Below the pieces are notes generated by a model, which was not told the DNA's origin, made no database searches, and saw only the letters and a list, made by a program, of their open reading frames with translations. Shown here piece by piece: positions 1-15,208 of a stretch of DNA of 21,299 nt. Positions within the stretch are counted from its first letter, which is position 1. The number at the start of each line of letters is the position of its first letter. The stretch comes from a virus. Location of the stretch: positions 1 through 21,299 of IMG/VR virus record IMGVR_UViG_3300044629_000016; one strand, given 5' to 3'. The position numbers and the translations under genes were made by a program.

Positions 1-1232
1 GCGCTCTGCCTCACACCTGAAATCAGGTAGCCGCCTCGACCGCCACCGCCTTGACCACCATCCGGTACCCCTGTCGTATTACTGTCAGCGCCGCCGCCGC
101 CACCACCGGCATAGAAGGAACCGAACACCTGACGCCCGGCCCCGCCGGGAGCCGACGGCCCCCCGCCAGAGCCAGACATGGAGGCTCCCGCAGCCGCAGC
201 ACCGCCACCGCCACCGCCAGACGCGCCAGAACCGAAGGTGTGGTAACCCGAACCGCCAGCGTTACCCTGCCCGGATGTACCGGAGCCACCTGAAGCCGCA
301 CCGCTAGAGCCCTGAAGGCTACCGCCGCCGCCGCCCGAACCGCCGTTCCTACCCGCCCGGTCAGCGCCCGCAGCATAGTAACCGCCGCCACCGCCGCCCG
401 AAGGGGCAAGACTGAACACGCTAGAAGAGGTCCCGTCCGAACCCTGCCCCAACGTAGCGGGGTTACCTCCACCCCCAACCGTCACGGTCTGATTGCCGAC
501 TGAAACCCCGGCGCGACCTGTGAGCAAGCCTCCGGCTCCGCCACCGCCGCCATATTGCCTACCCCCGCCGCCCCCGCCAGCGACCCCCAGATACTCCACC
601 ACCCCGCCCTCAACCACCCGCAACGAAGACGTAGACGTAAACGTGTGAACCTTGTAACCACCCGAGATCGTCTCCACGCCACCCACAATCACAGGCACCT
701 GAGTGATCCCATACAAGTAGAAACGACAGCCAGCAGCGAAAGCGTGACCACCCGCGCCACCGTTAGCCCATACAGTAAGCCGGTTGATAGCCGCAGTAGA
801 CGACCACAGACCCGCCACAGTCTGATTGAATCCGGTGGTCCCGTTTGTCTCGCCAGCACTCGTAGCCATGAAAGACTTGCTTGTGCTGCCAGCGTAGTTA
901 GGGATGTACACCGATGTGCTATCGAAGGTGTTAGCCGTATGCCCATCAGTAGGGGTGGCGCCGATGTAGGCCCCGTAGTAGCCGGTAAGGTTAGCCGCGT
1001 ATGATGACGCCGAGGCCCCGTCACCGCGCAAGACTATGCCGGAGTAGTCAGTAGAGTTATCGACCCCGTTGAAAGTGATAAAGGGCGATACCCAACTTGT
1101 GCCAGTACGGGTAGACCGCATAGATGCGACGAGAAGCAGGTCCGTGTAAATAGAAGGAATGTTACTGATGGATACCGAGATGGGGTTATCTGTAAGGGTG
1201 ACCTTGGTGATGAGGCGTTTCACGGTAGGCAT
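1..1232 (-). CDS. Glycine-rich tail-fibre or appendage protein, 3' end cut by window edge
   Basis: The frame starts at ATG 1232-1230 and stays open to base 1, so at least 410 residues are encoded and the C-terminus is missing. The start overlaps the TAA of the upstream gene by one base (TAATG). Residues 1 to about 180 form a beta-rich domain shared with five other proteins in this window; visible signatures are SNIPSIYTDLLLVAS, FNGVDNSTDYS, IPNYAGST, AGLWSSTAAI and a closing FYLYGI. After a linker with ISGGYKVHTF comes a long glycine-rich region with GGGGG runs, as in phage adhesins of the glycine-rich domain type. It is closest in layout to the protein at 2695-4011. The likely role is a surface-exposed receptor-binding or fibre component. 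The family role is inferred; the composition and paralogy are read directly. Confidence 0.8.
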   Translation of the reverse strand, partial: MPTVKRLITKVTLTDNPISVSISNIPSIYTDLLLVASMRSTRTGTSWVSPFITFNGVDNSTDYSGIVLRGDGASASSYAANLTGYYGAYIGATPTDGHTANTFDSTSVYIPNYAGSTSKSFMATSAGETNGTTGFNQTVAGLWSSTAAINRLTVWANGGAGGHAFAAGCRFYLYGITQVPVIVGGVETISGGYKVHTFTSTSSLRVVEGGVVEYLGVAGGGGGGRQYGGGGGAGGLLTGRAGVSVGNQTVTVGGGGNPATLGQGSDGTSSSVFSLAPSGGGGGGYYAAGADRAGRNGGSGGGGGSLQGSSGAASGGSGTSGQGNAGGSGYHTFGSGASGGGGGGAAAAGASMSGSGGGPSAPGGAGRQVFGSFYAGGGGGGADSNTTGVPDGGQGGGGRGGYLISGVRQS

Positions 1233-1744
1233 TACGACTCCGCCCTGATCCCGAACAGTTGAAACGTCGAACCAGCCACGAAGTCGCCACCCAGGCGCAC
1301 CGTAGTAATCGCAGCGGTGATTTGCACTAGGCTCACAGCCACTCGAAGCAGCGCCGGAGGATGACCTCCGTGCCATAGAACCGTCTTGAACATGTTGGTA
1401 TTGGAATACGACATAATGTGCGCCGTAGTGACAGCGTAAATGCCCGCAGCGGAGTTACCACCCGCAGCCAGACCGCCATTACTCTGCGTTTCAGAAGCAG
1501 CCGTATCCCTACCGCTAGAAGCCGAACTACCATTCCCCTGTAAACGGGTAACCGAATACACCCCGGTGGTGCTGACTCCGTTCAGGCGGAGTAGCAGCCC
1601 AGACGTAACCGCCGACTCATTCGTCCGCGAACTAGCAGTCACCACAAGGTCCGTGTAGTTACTAGGGACTGACGAGAAGACTACTTCCGTTGTCAGCGCA
1701 GCGGTAGTAGTCACAGACCCAATAGCATCGTAGGTGCGAGACAC
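1232..1744 (-). CDS. Beta-rich virion appendage protein (paralogue family copy)
   Basis: This 170-residue protein has a GTG start at 1744-1742 preceded by AAGGGG. It consists of the shared beta-rich domain alone, with no glycine-rich extension. Matching positions include FSSVPSNYTDLVVTAS near the N-terminus, LLRLNGVSTTGVYS, LQGNGSSASSG, AHIMSYSNTNMFK and the terminal FQLFGIRAES. The first two bases of the ATG of the next gene overlap its stop region (TAATG). It lies in a run of six such copies, so it is probably a fibre or capsid-surface subunit. No signal peptide or membrane segment is seen, as expected for a virion protein made in the cytoplasm. The function is inferred from position and paralogy only. 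Confidence 0.72.
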   Translation of the reverse strand: MSRTYDAIGSVTTTAALTTEVVFSSVPSNYTDLVVTASSRTNESAVTSGLLLRLNGVSTTGVYSVTRLQGNGSSASSGRDTAASETQSNGGLAAGGNSAAGIYAVTTAHIMSYSNTNMFKTVLWHGGHPPALLRVAVSLVQITAAITTVRLGGDFVAGSTFQLFGIRAES

Positions 1745-1746
1745 GG

Positions 1747-2337
1747 CTACCCCTTGATCCCATACAAAGCAGCCTGCGAGAACTGAGCAAAGTTACCGGC
1801 AGACAAGAAGAGTTGAACCGAAGTCACCGCAGAGGTAGACACAAGCAATCCGCTGTCCAAGTGAACCAAGCCCGAACCATTGAGATCGACGCCAGCAAGA
1901 ACGCGAATGACACGATTCTTATTGGCGACCGCATAATCCAGAATGTCGATAACGACACCGCCGAAGATGTTTGCCGTAGCCGTAGCGGCAGAGGTAGATC
2001 CAACGAACATCTCAGTATTGCTGGACTGCCCGACTGCCGTGGCAGAAGCGCCGTCTCCGTACAACTGGTGACGCGCATAACTAGCAGCCGTAACGCCGTT
2101 GATTCTCATGCGGCCACCGGCAAAGGCGGCACTTGCCGTGCCCCGTGACATATGACGAATCTGTAGGTGCTGATACGTCTGCGGGATGGAAGAGAACTCA
2201 ATGCTCGCAGCGCCGCCCGCACCCACCGTGACCGTCTGAATGGAGTCCATCTCCGACCAGCCCCACCCATAACCACCAACCATCGACGAGCCCTTACGGC
2301 CCGTCAGATCAGCAGTAGAGAAACGCCTAATCGCCAC
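1747..2337 (-). CDS. Beta-rich virion appendage protein (second subfamily)
   Basis: I choose GTG 2337-2335 as the start because GAGGTG lies five bases upstream; the start overlaps the end of the gene at 2327-2680 by 11 nt. Earlier in-frame codons lie inside that gene. The product is 196 residues. A short N-terminal leader (about 30 residues, with MVGGYGWGWSEMDSIQTV) precedes the shared domain: FSSIPQTYQHLQIRHM, MRINGVTAASYARH, VVIDILDYAVANKNRVIRV, GVDLNGSGLVHLDSGLL and ALYGIKG. It is most like the protein at 4516-5106, which also carries DSIQTVTVGAGG and a VDILD segment, so these two form a subfamily. A role as a virion surface or fibre protein is inferred. Confidence 0.72.
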   Translation of the reverse strand: MAIRRFSTADLTGRKGSSMVGGYGWGWSEMDSIQTVTVGAGGAASIEFSSIPQTYQHLQIRHMSRGTASAAFAGGRMRINGVTAASYARHQLYGDGASATAVGQSSNTEMFVGSTSAATATANIFGGVVIDILDYAVANKNRVIRVLAGVDLNGSGLVHLDSGLLVSTSAVTSVQLFLSAGNFAQFSQAALYGIKG

Positions 2338-2680
2338 GGAACACCTCAACCCACGACCCCGTGTCCTCATCCCACGAAATCGACAGGTGATCCTCAGTCC
2401 ACTCCGGCATCGGCACCGGCGACTTCCAATCATGGTTGCCGTCAAGGATCCATGACGGTGCGGGCTGCGGAGCCACGAACACATCAGCCGCCGGGTCGTA
2501 GGTGAAGCCAGGGCCGGGGTACTGCTTACGGATCCTGCCGTTGTACGAGCATTGGATCCATGTGCCGCCGAGGGTGAGGTCGTTGGCGAGGTAGTCCTGG
2601 CCTCGGTGTTCCTGCTCGTCGGGCACCACAAGAACACGAACCACAACCCCGGTAAGGTCGATCTCTGCGAAGTGAGCCAT
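2327..2680 (-). CDS. Small phage structural-region protein of a recurrent aquatic-phage type
   Basis: This 117-residue protein starts at ATG 2680-2678 and begins MAHFAEIDLTGVVVRVLVV. It carries the middle segment LGGTWIQCSYN and the run QPAPSWILDGNHDWKSPVP followed by acidic and aromatic residues. From memory this layout (MAHFAEI, a LGGTW block, a PxPSW block, then W-x-P-P) recurs in small proteins beside tail-fibre genes of marine and freshwater phages, but I know of no assigned function. It is the only gene in the fibre block that belongs to none of the paralogous domain families of this window. It lies between two appendage genes and overlaps the downstream one by 11 nt. It could be a fibre chaperone or a minor virion protein. 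Confidence 0.7.
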   Translation of the reverse strand: MAHFAEIDLTGVVVRVLVVPDEQEHRGQDYLANDLTLGGTWIQCSYNGRIRKQYPGPGFTYDPAADVFVAPQPAPSWILDGNHDWKSPVPMPEWTEDHLSISWDEDTGSWVEVFRGD

Positions 2681-2694
2681 GCGCCTATTCTTCC

Positions 2695-4011
2695 TTACCT
2701 GTATGGATACCTGATGATCACAATGCCCGAACCACCAGCCGCACCCGGACGAGTCGAATCACTCAAGCCGCCGCCGCCACCGCCACCCGTGTTCACGGTC
2801 CCGGCAGTACCAGTAGCCTGATTCGCGCCCGCACCACCGCCACCGGAGCCACCTGCGCCCGCTGTGCCACCGTTGGCGCCGCCGCCACCGCCACCAGCGC
2901 GAGTCACACCATCCACCCACGTCAGACCTGCGCCACCGGCACCGCTCACCGTTCCCGACCCGTTACCGCCTACGGCACCGGCACCACCGCCACCACCGCG
3001 ACCCTGATTAGTGTTTAGTGCCACGGCGTTACCGCCAGCGTTACCCTGCCCAGACGTACCGGCACCCGGTGTACCGGGGTTGCCGCCCGAGTCAGATCCG
3101 CCAGCGCCGCCGCCGGAACCGCCCGAGCGACCGCTATTCAGCCCGCTGTTGGAGAAGCCCGCCGCCCCGCCGCCGCCGAACGCCACCGCAAGCCCACCGA
3201 TAGACGAGTCGCCTCCGTTGGAGGCGGCTACATTCACGCCGAAGTTGCCAGCACCCCCTGCGCCCACGGCCACCGTGATCGGACCACCCGGCAGGAGAAG
3301 ATTGCGCGACACATAACCGCCAGCACCGCCGCCGCCAGTCTGTCCGCCGCCGCCGCCACCGACGACTAGCGCCTCCGCCCACCCCGGCGTGTTTACCTGC
3401 AACACACCCGACGACCGGAACGTATGCACCTTGTACCCGCCCGAAATCGTTACGTCCCCGCCCGACGCATCCATAAACACACCCGGATCCCCAGACGCCC
3501 GGCGGATGCCATACACGAAGAAAGACGACCCCGCAACGAAGTTCGCCACCTGACTCAGCAACGTCACAGACGTAACCGGCACCGTACCCGACCACAGGCC
3601 AGCGGTCGCCACAATGAACGCCGTCGTCCCGTTATTCTCCGTCACCGACTCGCAAGACACAGCCTTAGCCGTGCTGCCCGCGTAGTTAGCGACATAGATA
3701 GAGGCAACCCCGAATGTGCTTGCCGTGGCGGCAGCGGTCGGCGTGTAGCAGGCGAGCATCTGCGCCGCGCTGCTACCCGCGACTGATGACGCCCCCGATC
3801 CGTTGCCTTCTAAGTAGCGGAAACTGTAGTTACCGCCCGCGTCTCCGTTGAAGCGCAAGTTCAAGTTGTCCGCAAGATTCACAGTTCTAGCGGACCTAGC
3901 GGACGACACAATCAGGAGGTCCGTGAAAGTCTGGGGGATGTTGGAGAACGTGACAGTTGCCGCTTCCGCACCGAGTGTCTGCTTAGTGATGAACTCATAC
4001 GTTGCCGACAT
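2695..4011 (-). CDS. Beta-rich plus glycine-rich appendage protein
   Basis: The start chosen is ATG 4011-4009, which overlaps the upstream TGA by one base (TGATG). A longer in-frame reading to 4116 would run through the upstream gene. The product is 438 residues. Residues 1 to about 170 are the shared beta-rich domain (FSNIPQTFTDLLIVSS, LRFNGDAGGNYSF, LEGNGSGASS, IYVANYAGSTAK, AGLWSGTVPVTSV, SSFFVYGIR). A linker with ISGGYKVHTF follows, then about 220 residues extremely rich in Gly, Ala and Asn with GGGGGG runs, ending IVIIRYPYR. The same two-part layout is seen in the gene at 1-1232. Glycine-rich tips of this kind are known as receptor-binding parts of other phage adhesins, for example polyglycine helices in Salmonella phage S16 gp38. 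Similarity to that fold is an inference here. Confidence 0.8.
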   Translation of the reverse strand: MSATYEFITKQTLGAEAATVTFSNIPQTFTDLLIVSSARSARTVNLADNLNLRFNGDAGGNYSFRYLEGNGSGASSVAGSSAAQMLACYTPTAAATASTFGVASIYVANYAGSTAKAVSCESVTENNGTTAFIVATAGLWSGTVPVTSVTLLSQVANFVAGSSFFVYGIRRASGDPGVFMDASGGDVTISGGYKVHTFRSSGVLQVNTPGWAEALVVGGGGGGQTGGGGAGGYVSRNLLLPGGPITVAVGAGGAGNFGVNVAASNGGDSSIGGLAVAFGGGGAAGFSNSGLNSGRSGGSGGGAGGSDSGGNPGTPGAGTSGQGNAGGNAVALNTNQGRGGGGGAGAVGGNGSGTVSGAGGAGLTWVDGVTRAGGGGGGANGGTAGAGGSGGGGAGANQATGTAGTVNTGGGGGGGLSDSTRPGAAGGSGIVIIRYPYR

Positions 4012-4511
4012 CACGCACCTCGCAGAGCGTACAAATCGAAAGTAGACGACGCCGTGAACGTACTCCCGTTGATGTTGAACAGCCGCAGACTTGTGATGGC
4101 AGCAGTAGATCGCCACAAGCCGACACCGCGAGTTACTTCTCCGCCAGCCCCCGAATACGTCGCGAAGGCGACCTTGTTCACGTTCGTATTCGCATAAGAG
4201 GCAATGTTCAGAGTGCCCATTTGGACAGCGCCAGCGATAGGCCCAACGACGCTACCGAACGCCCGGTACGACGCCTGATTCGTTTCGCGCTGAGAACCGG
4301 CGGCGCTGCCGTTACCGGTGAGGAATGTGTTGGAGTAGTTGGTCGCGGTATCGCCGTTGTACTGCACTCGGGTGCCATCCGCGTTGGCAGAGATACCGAA
4401 GGTGGCGACCAAGAACAGGTCCGTGTACGTCTGCGGGATACCAGAGAACGTCACAGACGCGGCAGACGATACGAGCGTGATCGACGCAATCGGGTCACCA
4501 GTCAAAGCCAT
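4011..4511 (-). CDS. Beta-rich virion appendage protein (paralogue family copy)
   Basis: ATG 4511-4509 is preceded by GAGGTGATCTC, a good ribosome binding site, so I prefer it to the upstream in-frame ATG at 4532. The product is 166 residues starting MALTGDPIASITL. It is a single shared beta-rich domain with FSGIPQTYTDLFLVATF, VQYNGDTATNYSN, LTGNGSAAGS, LNIASYANTNVNK, VGLWRSTAAITSLRLF and a final FDLYALRGA. The stop overlaps the start of the 2695-4011 gene by one base, suggesting translational coupling. It is probably a virion-surface or fibre subunit; function is inferred from the paralogue array, not from a recognised named family. Confidence 0.74.
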   Translation of the reverse strand: MALTGDPIASITLVSSAASVTFSGIPQTYTDLFLVATFGISANADGTRVQYNGDTATNYSNTFLTGNGSAAGSQRETNQASYRAFGSVVGPIAGAVQMGTLNIASYANTNVNKVAFATYSGAGGEVTRGVGLWRSTAAITSLRLFNINGSTFTASSTFDLYALRGA

Positions 4512-4515
4512 GAGA

Positions 4516-5106
4516 TCACCTCGCCAGCACACCGTAAAGATGCACTACGGAGTTCTGCGGAACATTCGACTGAACCGTAGAGAATGTGACGCTAGTTACC
4601 GCAGCCGTGTTATTCCAGAGCCCCGAGTTCAGTCGCACGAAACCTTCGCCGCCATTCGTATCTACTCCGTTGAAAGCACGCACCGTTGTGTTCTTGGACG
4701 TGCTTGAAACGTCTAGAATGTCCACGACCCCGTAGTACGGTTGGGATAGCGTGCCCGTCTGCCAGTAGCCCACGCGGATGAATCCAACAGACGCTACTGC
4801 TCCCGTGCCCGTTGACGCGCCGTTACCGTTCAACTCATGGATGGCGTAGTTAGCGTTGGGGTCGCCGTTGAACCTGATGATGAAGTTGTTGTCCGCTACA
4901 GATGACGGAAGAACATACCGAAGGTGTAGATGCTGGAAGCGGCTAGAGATACCCGAGAAAGTAATGCTGCTAGTTCCGCCCGCACCGACCGTGACAGTCT
5001 GGATCGAGTCGATCACGCCAAGCGACGGCACATAGTTACCTAGTGCAGTCGTGTACTTCTCAAGCCCTTCCCGCAGAGAGGACTGAGACAGGCGAGTGAC
5101 AGCCAT
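4516..5106 (-). CDS. Beta-rich virion appendage protein (second subfamily)
   Basis: This 196-residue protein starts at ATG 5106-5104. A leader of about 30 residues (MAVTRLSQSSLREGLEKYTT) precedes VIDSIQTVTVGAGG and the shared domain: FSGISSRFQHLHLRYV, FIIRFNGDPNANYA, LNGNGASTGTGA, VVDILDVSSTSKN, NSGLWNNTAAVTSVTF and VVHLYGVLAR. The DSIQTVTVGAGG and VDILD segments pair it with the protein at 1747-2337. The leader differs from that of its partner and could be the part that attaches it to the particle. It sits 4 bases upstream of the next gene and 6 bases after the preceding one. The role as a surface or fibre protein is inferred. Confidence 0.73.
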   Translation of the reverse strand: MAVTRLSQSSLREGLEKYTTALGNYVPSLGVIDSIQTVTVGAGGTSSITFSGISSRFQHLHLRYVLPSSVADNNFIIRFNGDPNANYAIHELNGNGASTGTGAVASVGFIRVGYWQTGTLSQPYYGVVDILDVSSTSKNTTVRAFNGVDTNGGEGFVRLNSGLWNNTAAVTSVTFSTVQSNVPQNSVVHLYGVLAR

Positions 5107-5112
5107 GACTTA

Positions 5113-5478
5113 TCAGGTGTTCTCCGCGCCGAACGCCGCGAACGACATCGAAGTCGATGAGGCGTTGATCGTGATGATATCCGTCGCCGCGAGCGTCAAC
5201 CCCAACGTGAGCGCCGTGGAATCATTCGCCTGGATCGGCACATCGAACGCCACCCAATGCGCCGCCGCAATCGACGCACCAGCCGGACGAATAGCAATCC
5301 GGTACGTCTGCTGACTCGTGGTCTGATTACACACCGTGACCGTGGACACCACCGTCGAAGTAGCAGACGGCACCGTGTACAGGTTGTAGTTCGTGTTGAT
5401 CGCGGCAAGGGCCTGTGCCCCGTTCCCCGTATGACCAGCGGAACCCGTCATAGCGAGAACCTTGTAAGTAGTAGGCAT
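5113..5478 (-). CDS. YKVL-type small structural protein (copy 2)
   Basis: This 121-residue protein starts at ATG 5478-5476 and begins MPTTYKVLAMTGSAGH. It is a clear paralogue of the protein at 7104-7433: both have YKVL near the start, then a Val/Ser/Thr-rich stretch with cysteine in a VVSTVTVCNQ or IVICNRG segment, then RIAIRPAGASI or RIAVRPNAASL, a four-part beta pattern, and a closing FGAE or FGSE segment. Small proteins of this YKVLGQ pattern recur in phage structural regions, generally without an assigned role. The copy here lies inside the beta-rich appendage array, so an adaptor or fibre-accessory role is plausible but unproven. Confidence 0.72.
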   Translation of the reverse strand: MPTTYKVLAMTGSAGHTGNGAQALAAINTNYNLYTVPSATSTVVSTVTVCNQTTSQQTYRIAIRPAGASIAAAHWVAFDVPIQANDSTALTLGLTLAATDIITINASSTSMSFAAFGAENT

Positions 5479-5482
5479 GTGC

Positions 5483-5827
5483 TTATGCTCCCATCAGAAG
5501 GAAAACGGAATCAAGGCCGATCGTGCCTCCGCCAGCAGAAACAGTTGTCCACGCCACCTTGTTCACACCAGTTCCGGCGGCGTTCACGGTGAGTACCTGT
5601 CCGTCCGTGCCGAGCGGCAAACGGTCCATCTGATTGTCGGACTGGCCCACAAGCAGATCGCCAGCGGCGTTCACCAGTGTCACATCCACATAGTTGTGGA
5701 CATGGCTAGACGCCGACTTAGTTCCTAGTGCCGTCTCAACATCGGTGGCAAGGTATTCAATGTCGCGAGGGACGTTAGGCGTGTCAGTGGACGCCGGGTA
5801 ACGCAACCCACCGGGGGTAGTAGGCAT
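5483..5827 (-). CDS. Small tail-fibre-like protein
   Basis: This 114-residue protein starts at ATG 5827-5825 with AAGGAG five bases upstream. The N-terminus MPTTPGGLRYPASTDTPNV followed by RDIEYLATDVETAL is a pattern often found at the N-terminal attachment end of phage tail-fibre and tail-spike-like proteins. The C-terminal half, with HVHNYVDVTLVNAAGDLLV, LPLGTDGQVLTV and a final FLLMGA, resembles a short fibre shaft or head repeat. The start region (CACATGCCTACTAC) is almost identical to that of the downstream gene at 5478, but the proteins are otherwise unrelated. It may form the base of a fibre whose distal parts are the neighbouring separate proteins; that is inference. Confidence 0.75.
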   Translation of the reverse strand: MPTTPGGLRYPASTDTPNVPRDIEYLATDVETALGTKSASSHVHNYVDVTLVNAAGDLLVGQSDNQMDRLPLGTDGQVLTVNAAGTGVNKVAWTTVSAGGGTIGLDSVFLLMGA

Positions 5828-5836
5828 GTGTACTCC

Positions 5837-6664
5837 TTACCAACTCAATGTGATGTAGCCGTTACTGCCATTGACGCCTTCAACGGTCGCCGCCGGAACC
5901 ACAGCAGCGGTCGTGAAAGAGGAACCCGCACCACCGGCACCGTTACCACGGTTGTCGTCTGAAGAGTAACCACCACCACCACCGAAGTATCCGCTACCAC
6001 CACCCGCACCCGGATACGAGAAAGAGGGATTCACATACGAGTTATTGTCTCCCTCACCACCCTGCAACGCCGAACCGGCAGACGCCGTATTGTTGGGTTC
6101 CCCTGAACCGCCGCGAGCGCCACCCGCGCTGACCGTGCCCGCAGCGCCGTTGAATGATCCCGGCCCACCCAAGTTAGAAGAACCACCGCCGCCCCCCGCA
6201 ACAACGATCGCATTACCCTGTGTCAGAGAGCCCGCCGAGAAGATCCCCGAATAGCCGCCGCCCGCACCGCCCTGCACGAACGCGCTAGGGTAGTAGTTCC
6301 ACGTCGGCGAACCCGCGTTACCGCCACCGGGCCATCCGCCAAGATTCTGAACATTGACGGGATCAGGAAGCGACGCGAACCCACCCTCGCCGGCTTGCCC
6401 AGCCGCAAGATGCAAAGTCGCGCCCGGTGTCGTCGTCATACGGCCCGTGACGATGGAGCCTCCACCGCCGCCACCGCGTACCTCGTTACTGCCACCGCCG
6501 CCACCGGCTCCCACGACCTCAACCGTGATCGTGGTGACGTTCGCCGGCACCGTGAACGTCTGAAAAGCGTTCGACACATACACGAAAGACCTGCGGGCAC
6601 GCTGCGGTCCGTCCATAGCAAGGCTACGAGCGGACGCTGAACCGCGAGTCGTCAACATGGGCAT
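5837..6664 (-). CDS. Glycine-rich adhesin-like protein
   Basis: ATG 6664-6662 overlaps the TAA of the upstream gene by one base (TAATG), so I reject the longer frame that extends to 6790 inside that gene. The product is 275 residues. About 30 variable residues are followed by FQTFTVPANVTTITVEVVGA, a beta-strand entry, then a long glycine-rich domain with GGGGG runs alternating with short aromatic and Asn blocks (WNYYPSAF, SYPGAGGGSGYFGG), ending GVNGSNGYITLSW. This arrangement is typical of the glycine-rich domain proteins of phages and bacterial surfaces. Unlike the proteins at 1-1232 and 2695-4011 it lacks the shared beta-rich domain. It is probably a fibre tip or receptor-binding subunit. 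Confidence 0.78.
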   Translation of the reverse strand: MPMLTTRGSASARSLAMDGPQRARRSFVYVSNAFQTFTVPANVTTITVEVVGAGGGGGSNEVRGGGGGGSIVTGRMTTTPGATLHLAAGQAGEGGFASLPDPVNVQNLGGWPGGGNAGSPTWNYYPSAFVQGGAGGGYSGIFSAGSLTQGNAIVVAGGGGGSSNLGGPGSFNGAAGTVSAGGARGGSGEPNNTASAGSALQGGEGDNNSYVNPSFSYPGAGGGSGYFGGGGGYSSDDNRGNGAGGAGSSFTTAAVVPAATVEGVNGSNGYITLSW

Positions 6665-7104
6665 TAGGCGAACCGCCCCACAGACGCCAACACAAGATAG
6701 GTCGGGGTAGCAGCGGTCTTGACGATAGTGAAGGAGTACACGTCGATGGAGGATGCGGATCCTGCGGTGGGGGCGAACCCGCCGAGCCACTTTGGGGTCA
6801 CGGCGCTACCGTCGACCTGTGTCGCCGTCTGGTAGTACGGGGTGGATCCGTTTGTTACCAGAAACGAAACAGTGAATGACTGGCCCACGGGAAGCAGCGA
6901 CGACAGTGTGGTAGAAGCGTTGCCGCGCAAGTTCAGGGTCCAGTTAGCGCCCGCGTTCGCCGTGTAATAGACGACGGCCTGATTGGACACGTCGAAGTTG
7001 ATCGTGCCCGTGGCGGATGTAGCCGAGACGGTGACCTTCTCCTTCGGCCCGATGAACAGCGGATTGACAAACTCCGCCACCTCACGCGAACGGTAGATCG
7101 CCAT
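6664..7104 (-). CDS. Virion structural protein, probable fibre component
   Basis: This 146-residue protein starts at ATG 7104-7102, overlapping the upstream TGA by one base. It begins MAIYRSREVAEFVNPLFIGP and continues as alternating beta-strand sequence (INFDVSNQAVVYYTANAGAN, LNLRGNASTTLSSLLPVGQS, SFLVTNGSTPYYQTA), ending YLVLASVGRFA. The pattern of a Thr/Asn-rich sandwich with NLRGN and PYYQT resembles small beta-sandwich domains found near fibres in many uncultured phages. No enzyme motif is seen. It is in tight coupling with genes on both sides, so it is probably co-expressed with the glycine-rich protein downstream. Confidence 0.72.
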   Translation of the reverse strand: MAIYRSREVAEFVNPLFIGPKEKVTVSATSATGTINFDVSNQAVVYYTANAGANWTLNLRGNASTTLSSLLPVGQSFTVSFLVTNGSTPYYQTATQVDGSAVTPKWLGGFAPTAGSASSIDVYSFTIVKTAATPTYLVLASVGRFA

Positions 7105-7433
7105 CAGGTGATCTCACTTCCGAACAGGGTGAAGGAAAGGTCAGCGGTGGACGCATACACGACGACAAGATCAGCGGCGTCAATAGTGAGGCCGATGCTG
7201 ACGGAAATGGTTTCGTTACCCAGGATGGGGGAGTCGTAGAAGACGTAATGCTGATTCGCGAGGGAAGCCGCGTTAGGGCGGACAGCAATGCGGAACGTCG
7301 CGGCATCAGTTCCACGATTGCAGATCACAATAGATGACGACACAACCTGGGTTACGGAAGGGCATGTGTAGACAGTGGTATTCGTGGTGGCTGCCGGGGC
7401 CGACTGGCCGAGCACCTTGTATGCGATGGGCAC
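7104..7433 (-). CDS. YKVL-type small structural protein (copy 1)
   Basis: GTG 7433-7431 is the start, with AGGAG seven bases upstream, and it begins MPIAYKVLGQSAPAATTN. The 109-residue product is the paralogue of the 121-residue protein at 5113-5478; both have YKVL, VVSS or VVST followed by a cysteine segment, RIAVRP or RIAIRP, and a C-terminal FGSE or FGAE. This copy carries the more usual YKVLGQ form. It follows a 47-base gap that contains one of the three recurrent CTAACCCC-type sites listed below. It is likely an accessory virion or fibre protein; the family is recurrent in phages but I know no function for it. Confidence 0.73.
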   Translation of the reverse strand: MPIAYKVLGQSAPAATTNTTVYTCPSVTQVVSSSIVICNRGTDAATFRIAVRPNAASLANQHYVFYDSPILGNETISVSIGLTIDAADLVVVYASTADLSFTLFGSEIT

Positions 7434-7442
7434 TACCTTCTC

Positions 7443-7455
7443 CTAACCCCGGTTA
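7443..7455 (-). promoter_or_regulatory. Recurrent CTAnCCCCnGTTA site 1
   Basis: Plus strand CTAACCCCGGTTA; minus strand TAACCGGGGTTAG, directly before the AGGAG of the gene starting at 7433. It is one of three like sites in the few real gaps, each just before a ribosome binding site. Confidence 0.4.
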
Positions 7456-7480
7456 CTGAATGTGGAAGTCTCATGCAAGT

Positions 7481-8170
7481 CTACCGCTGAACACCGAGCG
7501 ACCCAGTGAACACAAATGGATGCGGGAACAGTTCCTCCGCCTGCTCAATAGCCTGATCTGCCCAACCCTCAGCCTCAGCCGCCAACGCAACCGCCTCAGC
7601 CTCGTAAGGCACTATGCCTGCGTATTGCACAATAAACGGGCCCGCAGTCACCGCAGCGTAAGTGGCAGGCCCCGAAGCCAGAGCCGAGTACGTCAGATAG
7701 GCCAGCATCAAGCCGCCATAATCGACAAGCACCTTGATACCGGCAGGCGAGTAACTAATCTTCGCCTCTTCCTCAGTGACCACGCCCTCCTCAAGGACAT
7801 AGGCCTGATAAGAAGCCAACTCGCTGAAAGCCTCGCCCGTGTAGGCCGGAACCAAGGAAGTCATCTTCACAGTGGTAGTGGCCTCGGGCAGTGCCGCCTG
7901 CCAAGTGCGGCCACCAGCAAAAGCCTCAGTGATGGTGTACACGAAAGACTCATTGAACTGAGGATCATCACTAGCCGGCAGCACAATCGAGAACTGGCCG
8001 AACGCATTGAGTGTCGCAGCGAATGAAGAAGGCACCATGATCTGATCGGCCAACTCGTTCCGCAGCGTCTTCGGCAGAGTGAAAGTCACTTGACCTGCGA
8101 CTGGGTCGCCCCGATAGTCGACATACTCACCCGTCACAGTCACCAGCGTGATGTTGCCAGCGATAGTCAA
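7481..8170 (-). CDS. Minor virion or tail-fibre protein (paralogous pair, copy 2)
   Basis: I choose TTG 8170-8168, one base after the upstream stop, giving 229 residues beginning MTIAGNITLVTVTGEYVDYR. The longer frame to 8344 runs through the upstream gene and gives an Arg/Leu-rich unlike sequence. The N-terminal domain matches the upstream protein closely: GEYVDYRGDPVAGQVTF against GQYVDVAGNPIAGQVKF, then LPASDD against LPATDD, and EAFAGGR against EAFSGGR. The C-terminal half has a helical Ala/Glu-rich segment (AVALAAEAEGWADQAIEQAE) and ends HPFVFTGSLGVQR. Both paralogues end with PFVF-x-G. This GxYxDxxGxPxxGxVxF domain is common in actinophage minor tail proteins. A short trimeric fibre is likely; this is inferred. 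Confidence 0.74.
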   Translation of the reverse strand: MTIAGNITLVTVTGEYVDYRGDPVAGQVTFTLPKTLRNELADQIMVPSSFAATLNAFGQFSIVLPASDDPQFNESFVYTITEAFAGGRTWQAALPEATTTVKMTSLVPAYTGEAFSELASYQAYVLEEGVVTEEEAKISYSPAGIKVLVDYGGLMLAYLTYSALASGPATYAAVTAGPFIVQYAGIVPYEAEAVALAAEAEGWADQAIEQAEELFPHPFVFTGSLGVQR

Positions 8171-8800: not shown

Positions 8801-9220
8801 TCAGGTCAGGTCAACCCACAGGTAACGGAACGTGGCAGACGCCTCGTTGATCGGTGAAGCAGTCGCATTGACCGCGTACACCGTGACCGTGTTAGCGCCC
8901 GTCACAGCAGCACCCGCGAAGGCGAGTCCCGATGTGAGCGCCGGAGGGTTCACCACAACCATGTCACCGACAGCAGCGCCCGTGACCGTGATAGTGCCCG
9001 ACCCGGTAGCCCCGGCAGAAATCGACGGGAGGTCGATAGCGCCGGTGCCCGTGCTGATGCCCTTGACGGTGGAACCGCCACCCACGGCGAGCGTGCCCGC
9101 CGTGAGGTCACCGGTCACCGTCGCGTCGTCACCGACCGTGAGGTCATCGGTAGCGACCACATCATCGTCAGCGTGTAGCCGGCCGACAAGGGCCTCTCCC
9201 TGAGTGAGACGGTTAGACAT
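8801..9220 (-). CDS. Small virion protein with N-terminal beta repeats, likely head fibre or decoration
   Basis: This 139-residue protein starts at ATG 9220-9218, overlapping the capsid gene's TGA by one base. Residues about 20 to 50 repeat a short beta pattern (VVATDDLTVGDDATVTGDL, TAGTLAVGGGSTV), as in trimeric beta-helical fibre shafts. The rest, from KGISTGTGAIDLPSISAGA to ASATFRYLWVDL, follows a small beta-sandwich pattern (ITVTGAAVGDMVVVNPP, TVTVYAVNATASPIN) that recurs in phage head and fibre proteins. Its coupling to the major capsid gene suggests it is a capsid-attached fibre or decoration. It is followed by the hairpin at 8739-8780. Confidence 0.72.
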   Translation of the reverse strand: MSNRLTQGEALVGRLHADDDVVATDDLTVGDDATVTGDLTAGTLAVGGGSTVKGISTGTGAIDLPSISAGATGSGTITVTGAAVGDMVVVNPPALTSGLAFAGAAVTGANTVTVYAVNATASPINEASATFRYLWVDLT

Positions 9221-10197
9221 CAGGCCACCGCGCTCGCGAAGTAGACGCCGAGGTCGCTGGACACGACCTTGTTGTCGAACGCAACCTCAGCCTCGACACG
9301 ATCCGCCTTGAGGGCGTCCATGCGAATCTGAGAGGTGCCGACCGTCTGGCCGAGGCCACCCGACACACCAGTCCACGAGAAGATGTAGCCGGCGGACGGG
9401 GTGAGCAGGCCGGGGTTCGGGGCGACGTGGCCGAGCCACGCAACCTTGCCCACGTTGAACGAGTAAGCGCCAGTGGCACCCTCGTTGTTCGTGGCCCGGA
9501 TCGACTTGGCGACGAGCACGCGGTCCACCTCGAACATGCGGGCGAGCATGTCGCTCGTCACCACAGAAGAAGAGGTGTACTTGATGCGGTCGACGATGTC
9601 GGGGTGATGACGCAACTTGCGGAACGTCTCGTACCCGAGGACGAGGGTGTTGGCCTCGAAACCCGTGGTCGAGAGGATCTGCGCCTTGCCGCCCTCAACG
9701 TCCTCGATCGGATCGGAGTTGGCGTAGTCGCTCCACTGCTTGAACTCGTCCGTGGAGGGAGCGCCGGCAACACCGGTGTAGTCCTTGCCCCAGACCGAAG
9801 TGGTCATGTAGTCGGACACGAACTGGACCTCGCGACGGAGCAGAAGACGCTGCGTCACGAACTCGGCAGCCTCGCGAAGCGGGTTCAGCGGGCTGTCCGA
9901 GTTGGCCTTCGTCTGATCGCCGACATCCTTGTGGAACGCCCACACGTCAGCCGAGTAGGTCGCGGTGCTCAGGTTGTAGCCCGAGCCAGCCGACTCGGTT
10001 GCGTCGGCGCGGCGCTGGGCCTCGTCGCGGAACCAGTCGTTCTTCGTGTAGACGAAGTACTTGTCCGACTTCTTGTCCACCGGGACAACCGGGAAGACCT
10101 TGTCGGCGATGAAGTTCTCCGACTTCTGCATGTACGCGACCGAGATGTTGGTCAGGATCGCGTCGATGTGAACATTGTTCACGTTCGGCTGTGCCAT
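9220..10197 (-). CDS. Major capsid protein (HK97 fold)
   Basis: This 325-residue protein starts at ATG 10197-10195 with AAGGAG nine bases upstream. It begins MAQPNVNNVHIDAILTNISV and shows a pattern I recognise from major capsid proteins of many uncultured and alphaproteobacterial or actinobacterial phages: FIADKVFPVVPVDKKSDKYF, YTKNDWFRDEAQRRADATES, VWAFHKDVGDQTKANSDSP, FVTQRLLLRREVQF, a middle LVLGYETFRKLRHHPDIVDR and a C-terminal RMDALKADRVEAEVAFDNKVV. There is no long N-terminal delta domain, consistent with a separate scaffold gene upstream. The gene order scaffold, decoration, major capsid is the usual one. It assembles the icosahedral shell around the portal. Confidence in identity is high from sequence pattern and context together. 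Confidence 0.92.
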   Translation of the reverse strand: MAQPNVNNVHIDAILTNISVAYMQKSENFIADKVFPVVPVDKKSDKYFVYTKNDWFRDEAQRRADATESAGSGYNLSTATYSADVWAFHKDVGDQTKANSDSPLNPLREAAEFVTQRLLLRREVQFVSDYMTTSVWGKDYTGVAGAPSTDEFKQWSDYANSDPIEDVEGGKAQILSTTGFEANTLVLGYETFRKLRHHPDIVDRIKYTSSSVVTSDMLARMFEVDRVLVAKSIRATNNEGATGAYSFNVGKVAWLGHVAPNPGLLTPSAGYIFSWTGVSGGLGQTVGTSQIRMDALKADRVEAEVAFDNKVVSSDLGVYFASAVA

Positions 10198-11908: not shown

Positions 11909-12574
11909 TCACTCGGTCTCCTCCAAGTCGACGAACAGTCTCTCGGCGCGTCCCCCAATAGAGTAGCCCCTGATCTTGCCGCCCTTGACTAACTCCCACG
12001 CCCACGGCTTCCACTTCACGCCGAGGAACACGGTGTTAGCGGGGAACGACACCGGTTCATGCGTGTCCTCACCGGTCGCGGCCTTCTTCATCATCGGCAC
12101 CTGCACCTCGTAAGGCCACGTCATCACCTCGACCCACTCCCCAGCGACCTCATCCCGGTCATGCTGAAGACGGATCCGGCGGTCGCCGCCCTTGACGTAA
12201 TCCCACACGGCCTTCTGCAACTCTTGCGCGTCGGTCCACTCAGAGTGGGCGTCGAGACGGTCGGGGATGTACATGGGGCCGAGGGTGAACATCTCCTCAG
12301 AGACGGCCTTGGACACCTCGAAGTCGCCGACACTCTTCGCCACCTCGGGGGTGAAGGCGTCAACAGCGAACAGGCGGGCCTGCTCCTCGGTGATCTCTTC
12401 GAGGCGCGGGTCACCGTCCACGATGTACAGGGCGAGACGTGGGTAGTCGACCCACTGCTTCTCGACGATGTCCCACAAGTAGGTGTCAAGGGTCTGGGCT
12501 TCGTCGTCTTGCTCCATGCGGAACAGGGCGTAGATGCCTTGCTCGTCGACTTTCCCGAACAGTCTGGTAACCAT
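11909..12574 (-). CDS. XkdF-like (Peptidase S78-type) capsid maturation protease
   Basis: I choose ATG 12574-12572, which has GGAG four bases upstream, over the GTG one codon earlier; the product is 221 residues. The N-terminal 90 residues are a less familiar domain. The C-terminal part follows the pattern of XkdF-type putative serine proteases: LGPMYIPDRLDAHSEWTDAQ, then LQHDRDEVAGEWVEVM (H138 and the E-rich VE segment) and LVKGGKIRGYSIGGRAER (S205 in GYSIGG). His and Ser are the residues expected for catalysis in this fold. The likely role is cleavage of scaffold and capsid-associated proteins in the procapsid. Its place between the multi-domain proteins and the scaffold fits. Whether the His-rich motifs upstream are its targets is unknown. 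Confidence 0.82.
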   Translation of the reverse strand: MVTRLFGKVDEQGIYALFRMEQDDEAQTLDTYLWDIVEKQWVDYPRLALYIVDGDPRLEEITEEQARLFAVDAFTPEVAKSVGDFEVSKAVSEEMFTLGPMYIPDRLDAHSEWTDAQELQKAVWDYVKGGDRRIRLQHDRDEVAGEWVEVMTWPYEVQVPMMKKAATGEDTHEPVSFPANTVFLGVKWKPWAWELVKGGKIRGYSIGGRAERLFVDLEETE

Positions 12575-12584
12575 CACTCTCCTT

Positions 12585-12598
12585 CTACCCCCAGTTTA
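12585..12598 (-). promoter_or_regulatory. Recurrent CTAnCCCCnGTTA site 2
   Basis: Plus strand CTACCCCCAGTTTA; minus strand TAAACTGGGGGTAG, directly before AAGGAG of the protease gene and overlapping the stop of the 870-residue gene. Confidence 0.35.
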
Positions 12599-15208
12599 GA
12601 CTAGGCCGGCGTCTTGCGCCGTCTGGAACCCCTGGAACAGCGGCGTGCCGATTGCCAGCACCGGACCTGCCGGGACGGTGATCTTGGCAGCCATGCGCGT
12701 CATGCGCCGATACGTCGTGTAGCGCGTCCGGTTATCCCTTGACTCACGGTACGTCTCATACTCGGCGTGGATCGGCTCCTTCGCCTTGAGGGATCCGGGC
12801 GTGTGGAACTGCAACTCGAACTTCTGCCCGTTCGGGTGCACGGCAGCGACGTTGATCCCCTGGTAGGGGTCGCCCTCGACCCAGTAGTTCTTGACGCGCA
12901 TGTCGTAGCCCTTGACCTCTAGGCCATCTACGGTTCCCGCCACACCTTCCGTGTATTCGGGCTCCTCGAACGTCATCGTGTAGCGGACGACGTCGGACAT
13001 CTTGTCGGCAGTGACCTCGGCGTCGCCGCCGTTCTCGACCTTCTCGTCGTCGATCTTCCGAGCGAGAGACTTCTCCGCCTTCATGCGGTAGTCGAGACCC
13101 TCCATCGTGCCGCCGTTAGCGTTCGCCGTGTCGATCATGTCTTTCGTGATCTCGGGCTCGGCCTCGGCCGCCTTGTCACGAACCCGCTTGGCCGCTGCGA
13201 CCACGTTGTCGGGTCGACCGGTGGCCGGGGGATTGTCGACAGGGTTCAACTTGTAGCCGCCGTAAGAGTCACCGTCCTCGGCCGCTGCCCCGCCTCGGCT
13301 ACCGCCCTCCTCGCCACCGCCCTTACGGGGCGCATGGCTGGCTTGATTGTGAGTGCCGTGCTTCTCGACAGGCCAGTTGAGGGTCACCACGGCACCACCC
13401 GGCAGGGAGAACGTGGTCAGGCTGTTGGGCAGGTAGTCGTAGTACAGGGTGTGGCCGTCGAGTGACTTCGAGGTGCGGTTGCGCTTATCGCCCGGCCACA
13501 TACCCGTGACCTCGCGGTGCCGGATCGCGCAGTAACCCTTGGCCTGCTCACTGCTCATGTACTTGCCGACCGCAGCCACACAGGCAGTGAAGTCGCCGCC
13601 GGCGCCCCACGAAATCTTGCCCTTGCCACCGCCACGCCAGTAGTCCCGCAGCGCCTCCGGGTTACCGGCCTTCTCCATCTCGTCCGCGAGGTAGGCGTAG
13701 GAACCGAAGTCGGATAGGTCGTCCTCGTCCATGGTGGACAGCAACTCTTCCTCGTCGACCTCGTCATCGGTCAGTGGCCCGCCAGTGAGCCACGCCGAGC
13801 AGGATCGTGCCGAGGCGCACTTGAACTGGAACAACTCGCAGTAGCCCAGGCCCGCTGCTTCCGCTACGTCCTCGCCCTCGTCGCTGATGTTGCCGGCGAT
13901 GGCATCGACGATCTCTTCCTTCACGTTGAAGGCGGCACAGTTGCCGCAGCGGGTCGTAGACGCCTCGTCCGCCGGCACGCCCCACACCTCACCGAGACGC
14001 TCCCAGTAGTCGCCGGGCTCGTCCGGGTTCATCGGCCCATACAGGTACTCGTCGATGGCGTGCTGCCGGTTCTCAAGGTTGACGTGGATGTCAGTGATCG
14101 CCTCGGGGACGGCACGCTTCTCCACGTCGCCGAGCACGGAACGCACCCATGACCGGCCGGGGTCTCCGCCCCACGCATCCCACGCCACACGCCACGGCGT
14201 CGGCTCCCCGTCGTCGAGTTGGGCGTGGTCGCCGCGCTGCTTGCCGTGCCGGGCGAAGTAGGCCCGCATCTTCACCAGCGTGTCCTGGCCGACCGTGCCG
14301 CCCTCAGCGAGTTGCCGAGCCCGGTTACGGCCCACCGAGGTGAACCCGTCGCCGGCCTTGCCGTCCTCAATCCACGCCACGGCTCGACGGGCAGCGGAGC
14401 GGACAGCGTCGGGCACCTTGTACGAGTCGGCCTTCTCAAGGGCCCCAATGGACTTCAGGGACGACGCCCGATGCCCCACGACCGTGTCCGTGGGCCGGAA
14501 GCCCTGAGAGGTGAGCCGGTACACGCGAATCAGGACCGCCGGATCCTCTTCCGAGGCGTTCAGCGTGAAGGTCGAGTCGGGCACGTTGACCTTGCCCTCG
14601 GTGACGATCCGCTCGATGCGGCCCCTGGCGGGTCCACCGGATGAGCCCCAGGTGACGAAGTCGTCGACTCGCCATTCCTTCGCCTTAGCGAACCGTTCGA
14701 TCTGGTCGAGGCGGGCCTGCGCTTCCTCGCGAGTTTCGTAGGTGCCGAACTCCCGATCCGTGTCCTCGGCCATGACGACGTACTTGCCGTCCCGCTCGAT
14801 GATGCGCTTGAGCATGGCTTTCGGCTTCTCGGCGCCCATGATGGAGTCGACGTGGACCGTGTTCACGTTGGGTGACGCCTTGAGGACGTAGCCGTCGACC
14901 GTGAGGAGCACCTGCACGACGCCGCCGGCTTCGAGGGCCTTGGCGAGGGGCTCGGACAGGTCGCCGGGGAAGTCGATGTCGTCGACCGACGCCACCTCGG
15001 CCTCATCGACCACGATCACTGACCGGGACCACTGGTCATCCTCGTGTCCGTGGTCGAGGCCCCGCTTCAGCATCTCCTGCGACACCAGATGGTGGGCCTG
15101 CACCGCAGCCGGGTCATCCACGGCAGAGGCGTCAAGGCGGGTGTGCAGTGCGACTAGGTCGTCGGTGGGGAGAGCGGCCAGCCTGACGGCGGGGTCGGTC
15201 ACTGTCAT
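12596..15208 (-). CDS. Large multi-domain head-associated protein with C-terminal RelA/SpoT-like domain
   Basis: ATG 15208-15206 has GGAGGA a few bases upstream; the product is 870 residues. Parts in order: an N-terminal helical segment with a LHTRLD pattern (1-60); a Tudor-like DUF2945-type segment with WRVDDFVTWGSSGGPARGRI and EEDPAVLIRVYR (about 178-255); a segment SYKVPDAVRSAARRAVAW to AWGGDPGRSW (262-355), recurrent in phage head proteins; a Cys-rich segment with C421, C424, C457, C464 and C470, possibly metal-binding; and a segment GGDFTACVAAVGKYM to AIRHREVTGMWPG (537-563). Then comes the motif KHGTHNQASH (616-625) and a Gly/Glu-rich linker. Residues about 650-845 have the RelA/SpoT pattern: R708-x-K710-x-x-x-S714, D739, Y782-QGIN, and E798-LQ-x-HT. 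I infer a virion-carried enzyme; the substrate is unknown. Confidence 0.75.
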   Translation of the reverse strand: MTVTDPAVRLAALPTDDLVALHTRLDASAVDDPAAVQAHHLVSQEMLKRGLDHGHEDDQWSRSVIVVDEAEVASVDDIDFPGDLSEPLAKALEAGGVVQVLLTVDGYVLKASPNVNTVHVDSIMGAEKPKAMLKRIIERDGKYVVMAEDTDREFGTYETREEAQARLDQIERFAKAKEWRVDDFVTWGSSGGPARGRIERIVTEGKVNVPDSTFTLNASEEDPAVLIRVYRLTSQGFRPTDTVVGHRASSLKSIGALEKADSYKVPDAVRSAARRAVAWIEDGKAGDGFTSVGRNRARQLAEGGTVGQDTLVKMRAYFARHGKQRGDHAQLDDGEPTPWRVAWDAWGGDPGRSWVRSVLGDVEKRAVPEAITDIHVNLENRQHAIDEYLYGPMNPDEPGDYWERLGEVWGVPADEASTTRCGNCAAFNVKEEIVDAIAGNISDEGEDVAEAAGLGYCELFQFKCASARSCSAWLTGGPLTDDEVDEEELLSTMDEDDLSDFGSYAYLADEMEKAGNPEALRDYWRGGGKGKISWGAGGDFTACVAAVGKYMSSEQAKGYCAIRHREVTGMWPGDKRNRTSKSLDGHTLYYDYLPNSLTTFSLPGGAVVTLNWPVEKHGTHNQASHAPRKGGGEEGGSRGGAAAEDGDSYGGYKLNPVDNPPATGRPDNVVAAAKRVRDKAAEAEPEITKDMIDTANANGGTMEGLDYRMKAEKSLARKIDDEKVENGGDAEVTADKMSDVVRYTMTFEEPEYTEGVAGTVDGLEVKGYDMRVKNYWVEGDPYQGINVAAVHPNGQKFELQFHTPGSLKAKEPIHAEYETYRESRDNRTRYTTYRRMTRMAAKITVPAGPVLAIGTPLFQGFQTAQDAGLV
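13334..13363 (-). repeat. His-rich tag copy 5 (KHGTHNQASH)
   Basis: Codes KHGTHNQASH at residues 616-625 of the 870-residue protein, followed by a basic Gly-rich linker and the RelA/SpoT-like domain. It is closest to copy 1 (NQASH ending). Confidence 0.85.

Follow-up and report, generated by a model that had tools for sequence, protein, structure and literature searches.

A three-class cassette of surface-domain genes in uncultured phages and its proposed assembly into a heteromeric receptor-binding head

Why should one phage encode the same surface domain in six genes? The question is raised by IMG/VR virus record IMGVR_UViG_3300044629_000016, of which positions 1 to 21,299 are analysed here (the window, a 21.3-kb stretch with a GC content of 62%, in which the recognised genes are all on the minus strand). 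The six copies are organised in two cassettes of three genes, each gene encoding a domain of class A, B or C, and the same cassette recurs in related loci. The three products may, in our proposal, work together as one receptor-binding head.

Six copies and two triplets

The block comprises the following genes, in the order of transcription:
4516..5106, minus strand: A of cassette 1, leader and class A domain (196 amino acids, aa; helix at residues 8-21 in the predicted model)
4011..4511, minus strand: B of cassette 1, bare class B domain (166 aa)
2695..4011, minus strand: C of cassette 1, class C domain and glycine-rich tail (438 aa; Gly_rich_2, 65.6 bits)
2327..2680, minus strand: 117-aa gene separating both cassettes (phrog_7759; homologues in 33 loci of a subset)
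1747..2337, minus strand: A of cassette 2, leader and class A domain (196 aa; best partner 4516-5106, z 37)
1232..1744, minus strand: B of cassette 2, bare class B domain (170 aa; partner 4011-4511, z 20)
1..1232, minus strand: C of cassette 2, class C domain and glycine-rich tail (partner 2695-4011, z 29)

The original prediction described this block as six tandem copies of one domain, on the basis of a series of shared motifs. The six open frames are present, all on the minus strand, and their homology was supported by alignment: the 15 possible pairs presented z scores from 7.3 to 37, and in 200 shuffles the score of no pair was reached. The other copies are 25-41% identical to the first one. 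When the six copies were paired with eight neighbouring proteins as a control, 47 of the 48 pairs stayed at z ≤3.2; the remaining pair, B at 4011-4511 with the protein at 5483-5827, showed an unexplained similarity (z 4.4, 0/200 shuffles). The motifs themselves are mostly not literal. In strict form, FNGD occurs in two of the six copies, GNGS in three, LYGI in two, F..IP..Y.DL in one and GLW..TAI in none, and only loosened forms of the first, fifth and sixth quoted motifs (F..IP..Y.DL, GLW..TAI and LYGI) fit five or six copies. The motif reading was thus rejected as a proof of homology, and alignment with shuffling was used in its place. The DSIQTVTVGAGG leader was confirmed in two copies (1747-2337 and 4516-5106), as were the glycine-rich extensions in two others (1-1232 and 2695-4011). 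The term tandem needs a qualification, since all copies are present but not strictly contiguous, the phrog_7759 gene lying between two triplets.

The pairings 4516/1747, 4011/1232 and 2695/1 indicate, from the alignments, that the six copies are a duplicated triplet A-B-C. The second of them rests on the class tree presented below, because 4011/2695 scores higher (21.5) than 4011/1232. The frame 1-1232 is truncated by the end of the window, and the complete C is present in a near-identical contig (L016; the loci collected in this work carry L numbers).

The ABC cassette in relatives

Relatives were searched with one full protein, a profile of the six copies, alignments of classes A, B and C, and one genome scan. 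The collected set includes 405 sequences (404 loci and the window) with 1208 domains, six of the 405 being without a domain. Of the 543-579 relatives confirmed in each class scan, the best 80 were retained, which leaves the more distant ones under-sampled. An array was considered complete when at least 1 kb was available on both sides, which resulted in 227 arrays, or 163 after dereplication. The counts exclude the arrays, from 172 loci, that come closer than 1 kb to a locus end; seven of these arrays deviate in order (aAC in three, aABC in two and CABC in two).

The dereplicated complete arrays were exact repeats of the triplet, (ABC)n, in 161 of 163 cases: 151 were ABC, nine ABCABC and one ABCABCABC. 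The comparison of copy number among relatives suggested by the original prediction therefore returned three, six or nine copies in these arrays. The other two present one extra domain ahead of a complete ABC, and none of the 163 lacks a class. Before dereplication, the numbers were 212 ABC, 12 ABCABC, one ABCABCABC and two with an extra domain. Loci up to L102 served to train the class models; among arrays of later loci, outside that sample, 116/118 were exact.

A tree of 255 domains accounts for the triplet positions with four changes, compared with a mean of 120 for shuffled positions. Class C occupies one side of a branch, with a support of only 58, and the corresponding groups hold 84 of 86 A domains and 83 of 86 B domains. 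By this tree, the three positions are three near-perfect clades.

Some irregular arrays were also observed. In L120, a weak and short lone domain (7406-7798; 17.7 bits) precedes a complete ABC, and an extra domain occurs likewise in L368 and L060. The triplets at 7398-9395 of L046 and 3057-4569 of L099, both near a contig end, read as unclear-A-C and still have three genes. A single 61-kb contig contributes both L030 and L106, which are its ends: at one of them the array is cut by the contig border (ABC then A), an ABC is found near the other, and both are perhaps parts of one longer array broken in assembly.

At E ≤0.001, 143 structural relatives were found in BFVD. No PHROG family was found over an A, B or C domain at E ≤0.001, apart from a marginal match in one of 71 class A rows (E 0.00095; classes B and C were scanned through the window copies); at the same threshold, phrog_2295 was the sole match of the six window copies and was restricted to their tails, starting at residue 128 in one copy. 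Similarly, no Pfam family covers the domain in the window copies and the 71 class A rows, except for one marginal row. Five A, B and C queries compared by tblastn with 50,697 phage records recovered only the Planktophila phages E7 and F5, discussed below, one query matching nothing. The search of PDB sequences with the domains gave no relative at E ≤0.01: A had two chance-level rows (E 0.6-0.7), and B and C had none at E ≤1.

The three genes differ in anatomy, as counted in 174 cassettes by the distance between the domain start and the nearest methionine. This residue lies at most six residues before the domain in 164/174 B and 166/174 C genes (median 3), none being found for seven B and six C genes. 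In class A it lies at least 15 residues before the domain in 124/174 (median 19); in 24 A genes none was found, and these must use other start codons. The genes are closely spaced: measured from the end of a stop codon to the codon that opens the following domain, the median distances are 11 and 8 nucleotides (nt). Glycine-rich tails are absent from all chains in 142 of the 174 cassettes, present on C alone in 13 and on B and C in 19, and never occur on A. The A of some phages follows, within one fused protein, longer sequences that resemble fibronectin repeats by eye, and one BFVD relative is so named.

Phage fibres are usually homotrimers. The three genes could encode three independent homotrimeric receptor-binding proteins, acting in parallel on different receptors, and the divergence of the domains noted above is what this explanation would lead one to expect. 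Independent parts, however, should be lost or multiplied singly, whereas no complete array lacks a class and only 2/163 have one extra domain; furthermore, B and C have no N-terminal anchor of their own. We consider this explanation decidedly unlikely.

The predicted model of A (mean pLDDT 88.8) contains a helix and a beta-sandwich, and that of C reached a pLDDT of 93. The likeness of the sandwich to lectin-type jelly rolls was limited to Z 6-8, and it may be of the Concanavalin A-like kind: the highest rows were C-terminal sandwiches of GH32 (Z up to 8.2), galectins (7.1) and legume lectins (6.8), and scores under 8 may reflect only a common arrangement; residues 1-174 of the predicted C model gave sandwich-domain matches at Z 6-7.5. 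Foldseek against PDB returned weak rows with low TM-scores. The three classes share the same most variable columns of the domain (about 42-47 and 80-99), which would lie largely in predicted loops, judging by their position in the A model; the variable regions were one of the points that the original prediction had recommended for inspection.

The tail of C in cassette 1 belongs to Gly_rich_2 (PF21722), with its score far above the gathering score of 24.3; the truncated C of cassette 2 scored 30.3 bits and its complete form in L016 45.3 bits. In the predicted model, this tail matched chain 7ypx_A, the tail fibre gp24 of cyanophage Pam3 (Z 14.3, root-mean-square deviation 3.0, 178 residues aligned, 32% identity), and chain 9d93_Qa from the tail tip of mycobacteriophage Bxb1 (Z 14.1, 30% identity over 181 residues). 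The glycine-rich tail was missed by phmmer and found by the comparison of folds.

Turnover and genomic place of the cassette

Pairwise comparisons of the flanks revealed that the cassette changes between otherwise similar phages. The window, completed by L016, matches contig 3300042554_000484 (L030 and L106) on both sides of the block, with identities of 97% upstream (7.2 kb) and 96% downstream (4.1 kb), and their domains of the same class share 32-52% amino-acid identity. Against L004, identity is 82% over 2.6 kb and 96% over 4.1 kb in the flanks and 42-56% in the domains. The upstream identity reaches into the leader of the first A, to window position 4919 (4919-5106 is 97% identical in L030), and most of the domain of this A is outside the 97%-identical stretch. 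Shorter islands of 74-93% persist inside the block where genes or domains meet, and others cover the end of the tail, the 117-aa gene and the leader that belongs to the second A.

The survey was extended to 236 distinct single cassettes, flanks of at least 85% identity being considered similar. Both flanks were similar in 26 pairs (35 loci in 14 groups; medians 91%), and A, B and C differ in every one of them, with median identities of 55, 53 and 54%. Among the 129 pairs with one similar flank, 116 differ in all three genes, ten keep one or two and three keep all of them. The cassette is a turnover island. Variable islands for host recognition are already known, as in passages of PMC3909814. 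The suggestion of the original prediction that the copies provide different receptor ranges fits at the level of the whole cassette, which turns over while its flanks stay similar.

A comparison with known hosts is offered by LanE43AprE7 (OX376640; E7) and LanE43AprF5 (OX376641; F5), two phage species isolated on Planktophila strain LanE-43 (PMC10202952). Each carries one ABC cassette, and the ABC segment presents no difference between them in 1507 nt, compared with 92.6% identity in the stretch after C and 92.9% in the upstream fibre gene; 2 of 199 overlapping windows of 1507 nt are equally identical. As in the window, the two phages carry an ABC cassette; unlike it, they have a single cassette with bare B and C, and their glycine-rich proteins are separate genes. 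In E7 (L023, 23587-25320), two such proteins of 277 and 296 aa, matching phrog_2295, are directly before A.

The same paper describes a variable island, with a possible role in host recognition, that contains part of a tail fibre, two collagen-like proteins and 'three proteins encoding DUF2541' (PMC10202952). By gene order, these three proteins should be A, B and C. DUF2541 had no match in the six window copies (E ≤1; the inclusion of this model in the Pfam copy used is unverified) or in the 71 class A rows (E ≤0.01), a scan that did not include the E7 and F5 copies. Three classes, fixed copy numbers and a heteromer are not described in the main text of that paper.

The neighbours of the cassette were scanned for 50 of 154 upstream and 46 of 129 downstream proteins. 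The protein directly upstream of A matched the minor-tail family phrog_8780 in 23/50 and the tail-fibre family phrog_38058 in 19/50 (the overlap between them was not counted), and the downstream proteins matched phrog_11667 in 15/46 and endolysins in at least 4/46. In the window, a Mu-type portal is followed by a MuF-like protein, an XkdF-type protease, a protein in the scaffold position, a small protein with a match to a PHROG named 'head scaffolding' and the major capsid protein; after it come small fibre-type proteins and then the six copies. Beyond the complete C, L016 encodes genes matching neck and tail-terminator families, so that the block of the window phage is placed between capsid genes and neck genes, an arrangement found also in L010 and L014. 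In L004 the same genes flank the block on both sides, and the locus stops short of the capsid gene.

The genes of the window outside the block include:
5113..7433, minus strand: small virion-type proteins and one glycine-rich protein upstream of the cassettes (121, 114, 317, 146 and 109 aa)
9220-10197: major capsid gene
11909-12577, minus strand: XkdF-type protease (PF14550)
12596-15208, minus strand: 870-aa protein with a Hva1_TUDOR match and a C-terminal head-morphogenesis-like part
15687-18770, minus strand: 1027-aa protein beside MuF

The proteins at 5113..7433 have PHROG matches, several of them named tail fibre, and homologues of some recur in cassette-bearing loci. The proteins at 5113-5478 (121 aa) and 7104-7433 (109 aa), both on the minus strand, hit the same frames in several relatives, with homologues in 52 and 50 loci, respectively, of a subset. 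For the protease at 11909-12577, further PHROG matches carry the names RNA ligase and DNA methyltransferase, which are probably misleading. The 1027-aa protein presents repeated KHGSH(D/N)Q(S/A)SH motifs separating divergent segments and has no Pfam family at E ≤0.01.

This location raises the possibility that the cassettes of the window phage are fibres of the head or neck, and not of the tail, which would be compatible with either assembly considered below, heterotrimeric or serial. Neck fibres are a known kind of appendage, and the position between the major capsid gene and the neck and tail-terminator genes, shared by L010 and L014, is in agreement with it. On the other side are the minor-tail and tail-fibre families directly upstream of A in relatives, the tail-fibre PHROGs matched by the upstream genes of the window, and the likeness of the glycine-rich tails to chains of a tail fibre and a tail tip. 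We regard a head or neck location as quite unlikely. The capsid coat that the original prediction offered as one option may apply to this phage, given the position of its block; in the relatives scanned, tail families are found directly upstream.

Proposed assembly and its alternatives

The completeness of the set, its fixed order, the three old lineages and the missing anchors of B and C suggest that the three proteins work as one object, and with three homologous domains a heterotrimer is the simplest such object. We therefore propose, with moderate confidence, that the products of the three genes form a single receptor-binding head, which would be heteromeric and probably a heterotrimer. 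The heteromeric fibre, one of the options in the original prediction, is thus favoured: the three classes form a complete ordered set, and B and C lack an N-terminal anchor. This confidence comes from the gene evidence and the precedents given below, not from couplings between the chains.

The physical assembly, its stoichiometry, its location in the virion and its binding to a receptor are what we infer, as follows. A, B and C would be three anciently diverged chains of one head. A would be tied to the tail (or neck) through its N-terminal leader, and B and C would join it by contacts between domains, a pseudo-threefold A:B:C heterotrimer being the most economical assembly. A glycine-rich adhesin tail may be present on C or on both B and C, and variable loops and tails would bind the host surface, for which reason the set would be replaced or diversified between otherwise similar phages. 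The two cassettes of the window phage would probably provide two kinds of head.

Heterotrimers of three consecutive proteins are already known, as are variable recognition islands and glycine-rich fibre tips. According to passages of PMC12724248, virophage DSLV2 encodes in succession three tail proteins that purify together as a 1:1:1 heterotrimer and that bind Synechococcus; 44 of 3,029 virophages retain this order of the three genes. The likeness to the cassette is in the arrangement of three consecutive genes; DSLV2 is, on the other hand, a virophage, its proteins are likened there to the T4 gp37 tip, and glycine-rich tails, a leader class and multiplied cassettes are absent from those passages. 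Mycobacteriophage Mysterious is similar in arrangement, since its gp35, gp36 and gp37 are described, in part of a preprint (PMC13252515), as consecutive beta-sandwich proteins forming one baseplate heterotrimer. They differ in having N-terminal hairpin arms, for which B and C have no room. A term search of the available text of the Douge paper (PMC13033339) did not find 'heterotrimer'.

For the glycine-rich part, the layered domain of Pam3 gp24 (7ypx, 7yfw), proposed in passages of PMC9608196 to bind the host receptor, is the counterpart of the C tail, and the tail tip chain of Bxb1 (9d93_Qa) has a similar domain. In the description given there, gp24 forms homotrimers whose chains have a helical part at the N terminus and a TNF-like domain, whereas the cassettes have the tail on one or two of three chains, and B and C have no room for such a helical part before the domain.

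A different use of three genes is known in the neck fibre of Anabaena phage A-1(L), in which gp82 is the anchor, gp81 supplies the beads and gp80 terminates the chain; in its model, N-terminal beta-hairpins of gp81 contact the preceding trimer (both from passages of PMC10966104). By this description, the operon of A-1(L) is like the cassette in encoding three proteins, an anchor, a bead and a tip; it differs in that homotrimeric beads are stacked in a chain. Following this example, A, B and C could be homotrimers stacked end to end in a serial fibre, with A at the base, B in the middle and C at the tip. The fixed order and the missing anchors of B and C would be explained, both systems would have one anchored, one bare and one terminal member, and A-1(L) does build a chain of beads from one operon. 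However, in contrast to gp81 with its N-terminal hairpins, B and C have about three residues before the domain, and a tail on B as well as C (19/174 cassettes) fits poorly with a middle bead. The serial fibre is in our judgement unlikely, and the heterotrimeric head is preferred.

Mean-field couplings were calculated over 255 paired sets of A, B and C. Couplings between chains above the threshold numbered 102, against 46-71 in seven shuffles within clusters. Co-switches on independent branches were found for A28-C162 (6.8 to 0.1) and A28-C4 (5.6 to 1.0), and the co-switch bar was passed by 6 of the 40 top pairs and by 2 of 120 controls, the controls being less associated initially. In the ring test, in which the same map is expected for A-B, B-C and C-A, one patch at the first columns was above the null (3/300), and a patch of columns 136-155 with 64-73 was suggestive and is not claimed. 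Couplings at the first and last columns were discounted: B4-C167, which rests on gaps from the trimming of domains, and B3-C166, which shows no co-switching (same 1.0, opposite 2.1).

Several observations weigh against the heteromeric head or against parts of it. The shuffle control mixes one cluster that holds 208 of the 255 rows. Six association-matched controls co-switched at 10.4 to 2.9, about the same ratio as the 40 top pairs (131.0 to 39.5), and with another choice of residues A28-C162 had no excess (5.9 to 5.1). The ring test did not clearly separate real from shuffled data, and transposed maps correlated on average as well as or better than ring-consistent maps. The coevolution evidence for an A:B:C assembly is weak. 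The ten dereplicated pairs of cassettes that keep one or two genes (at least 85% identity) differ in the others, so that partners are exchangeable singly, which also favours the independent homotrimers discussed above. The link to the host in E7 and F5 is a single pair; their second glycine-rich gene is 99.8% identical and much of the 17-21.5 kb region 98-100%, and phages isolated from the same sampling may have undergone recent exchange for other reasons. Finally, the block of the window phage adjoins head and neck genes.

A stronger statement of the proposal would be a widespread and hitherto undescribed system of host recognition in phages: an obligate A:B:C heterotrimer of three lectin-like paralogues, an indivisible set long preserved and multiplied as a whole, with a combinatorial identity code in which the swap of any chain would shift specificity and phages of one host would have the same set. 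This we put forward tentatively, its chance of being wrong appearing somewhat greater than that of being right.

No description of a fixed and multiplied three-class cassette of tailed phages was found in our searches of the open PMC literature, and the cassette is common in contigs of uncultured phages. If the proposal is true, a heteromeric head with three separately evolving chains would offer several recognition surfaces, each changeable alone. In addition, should the three genes reveal host specificity, the matching of cassettes might allow the hosts of uncultured phages to be predicted.

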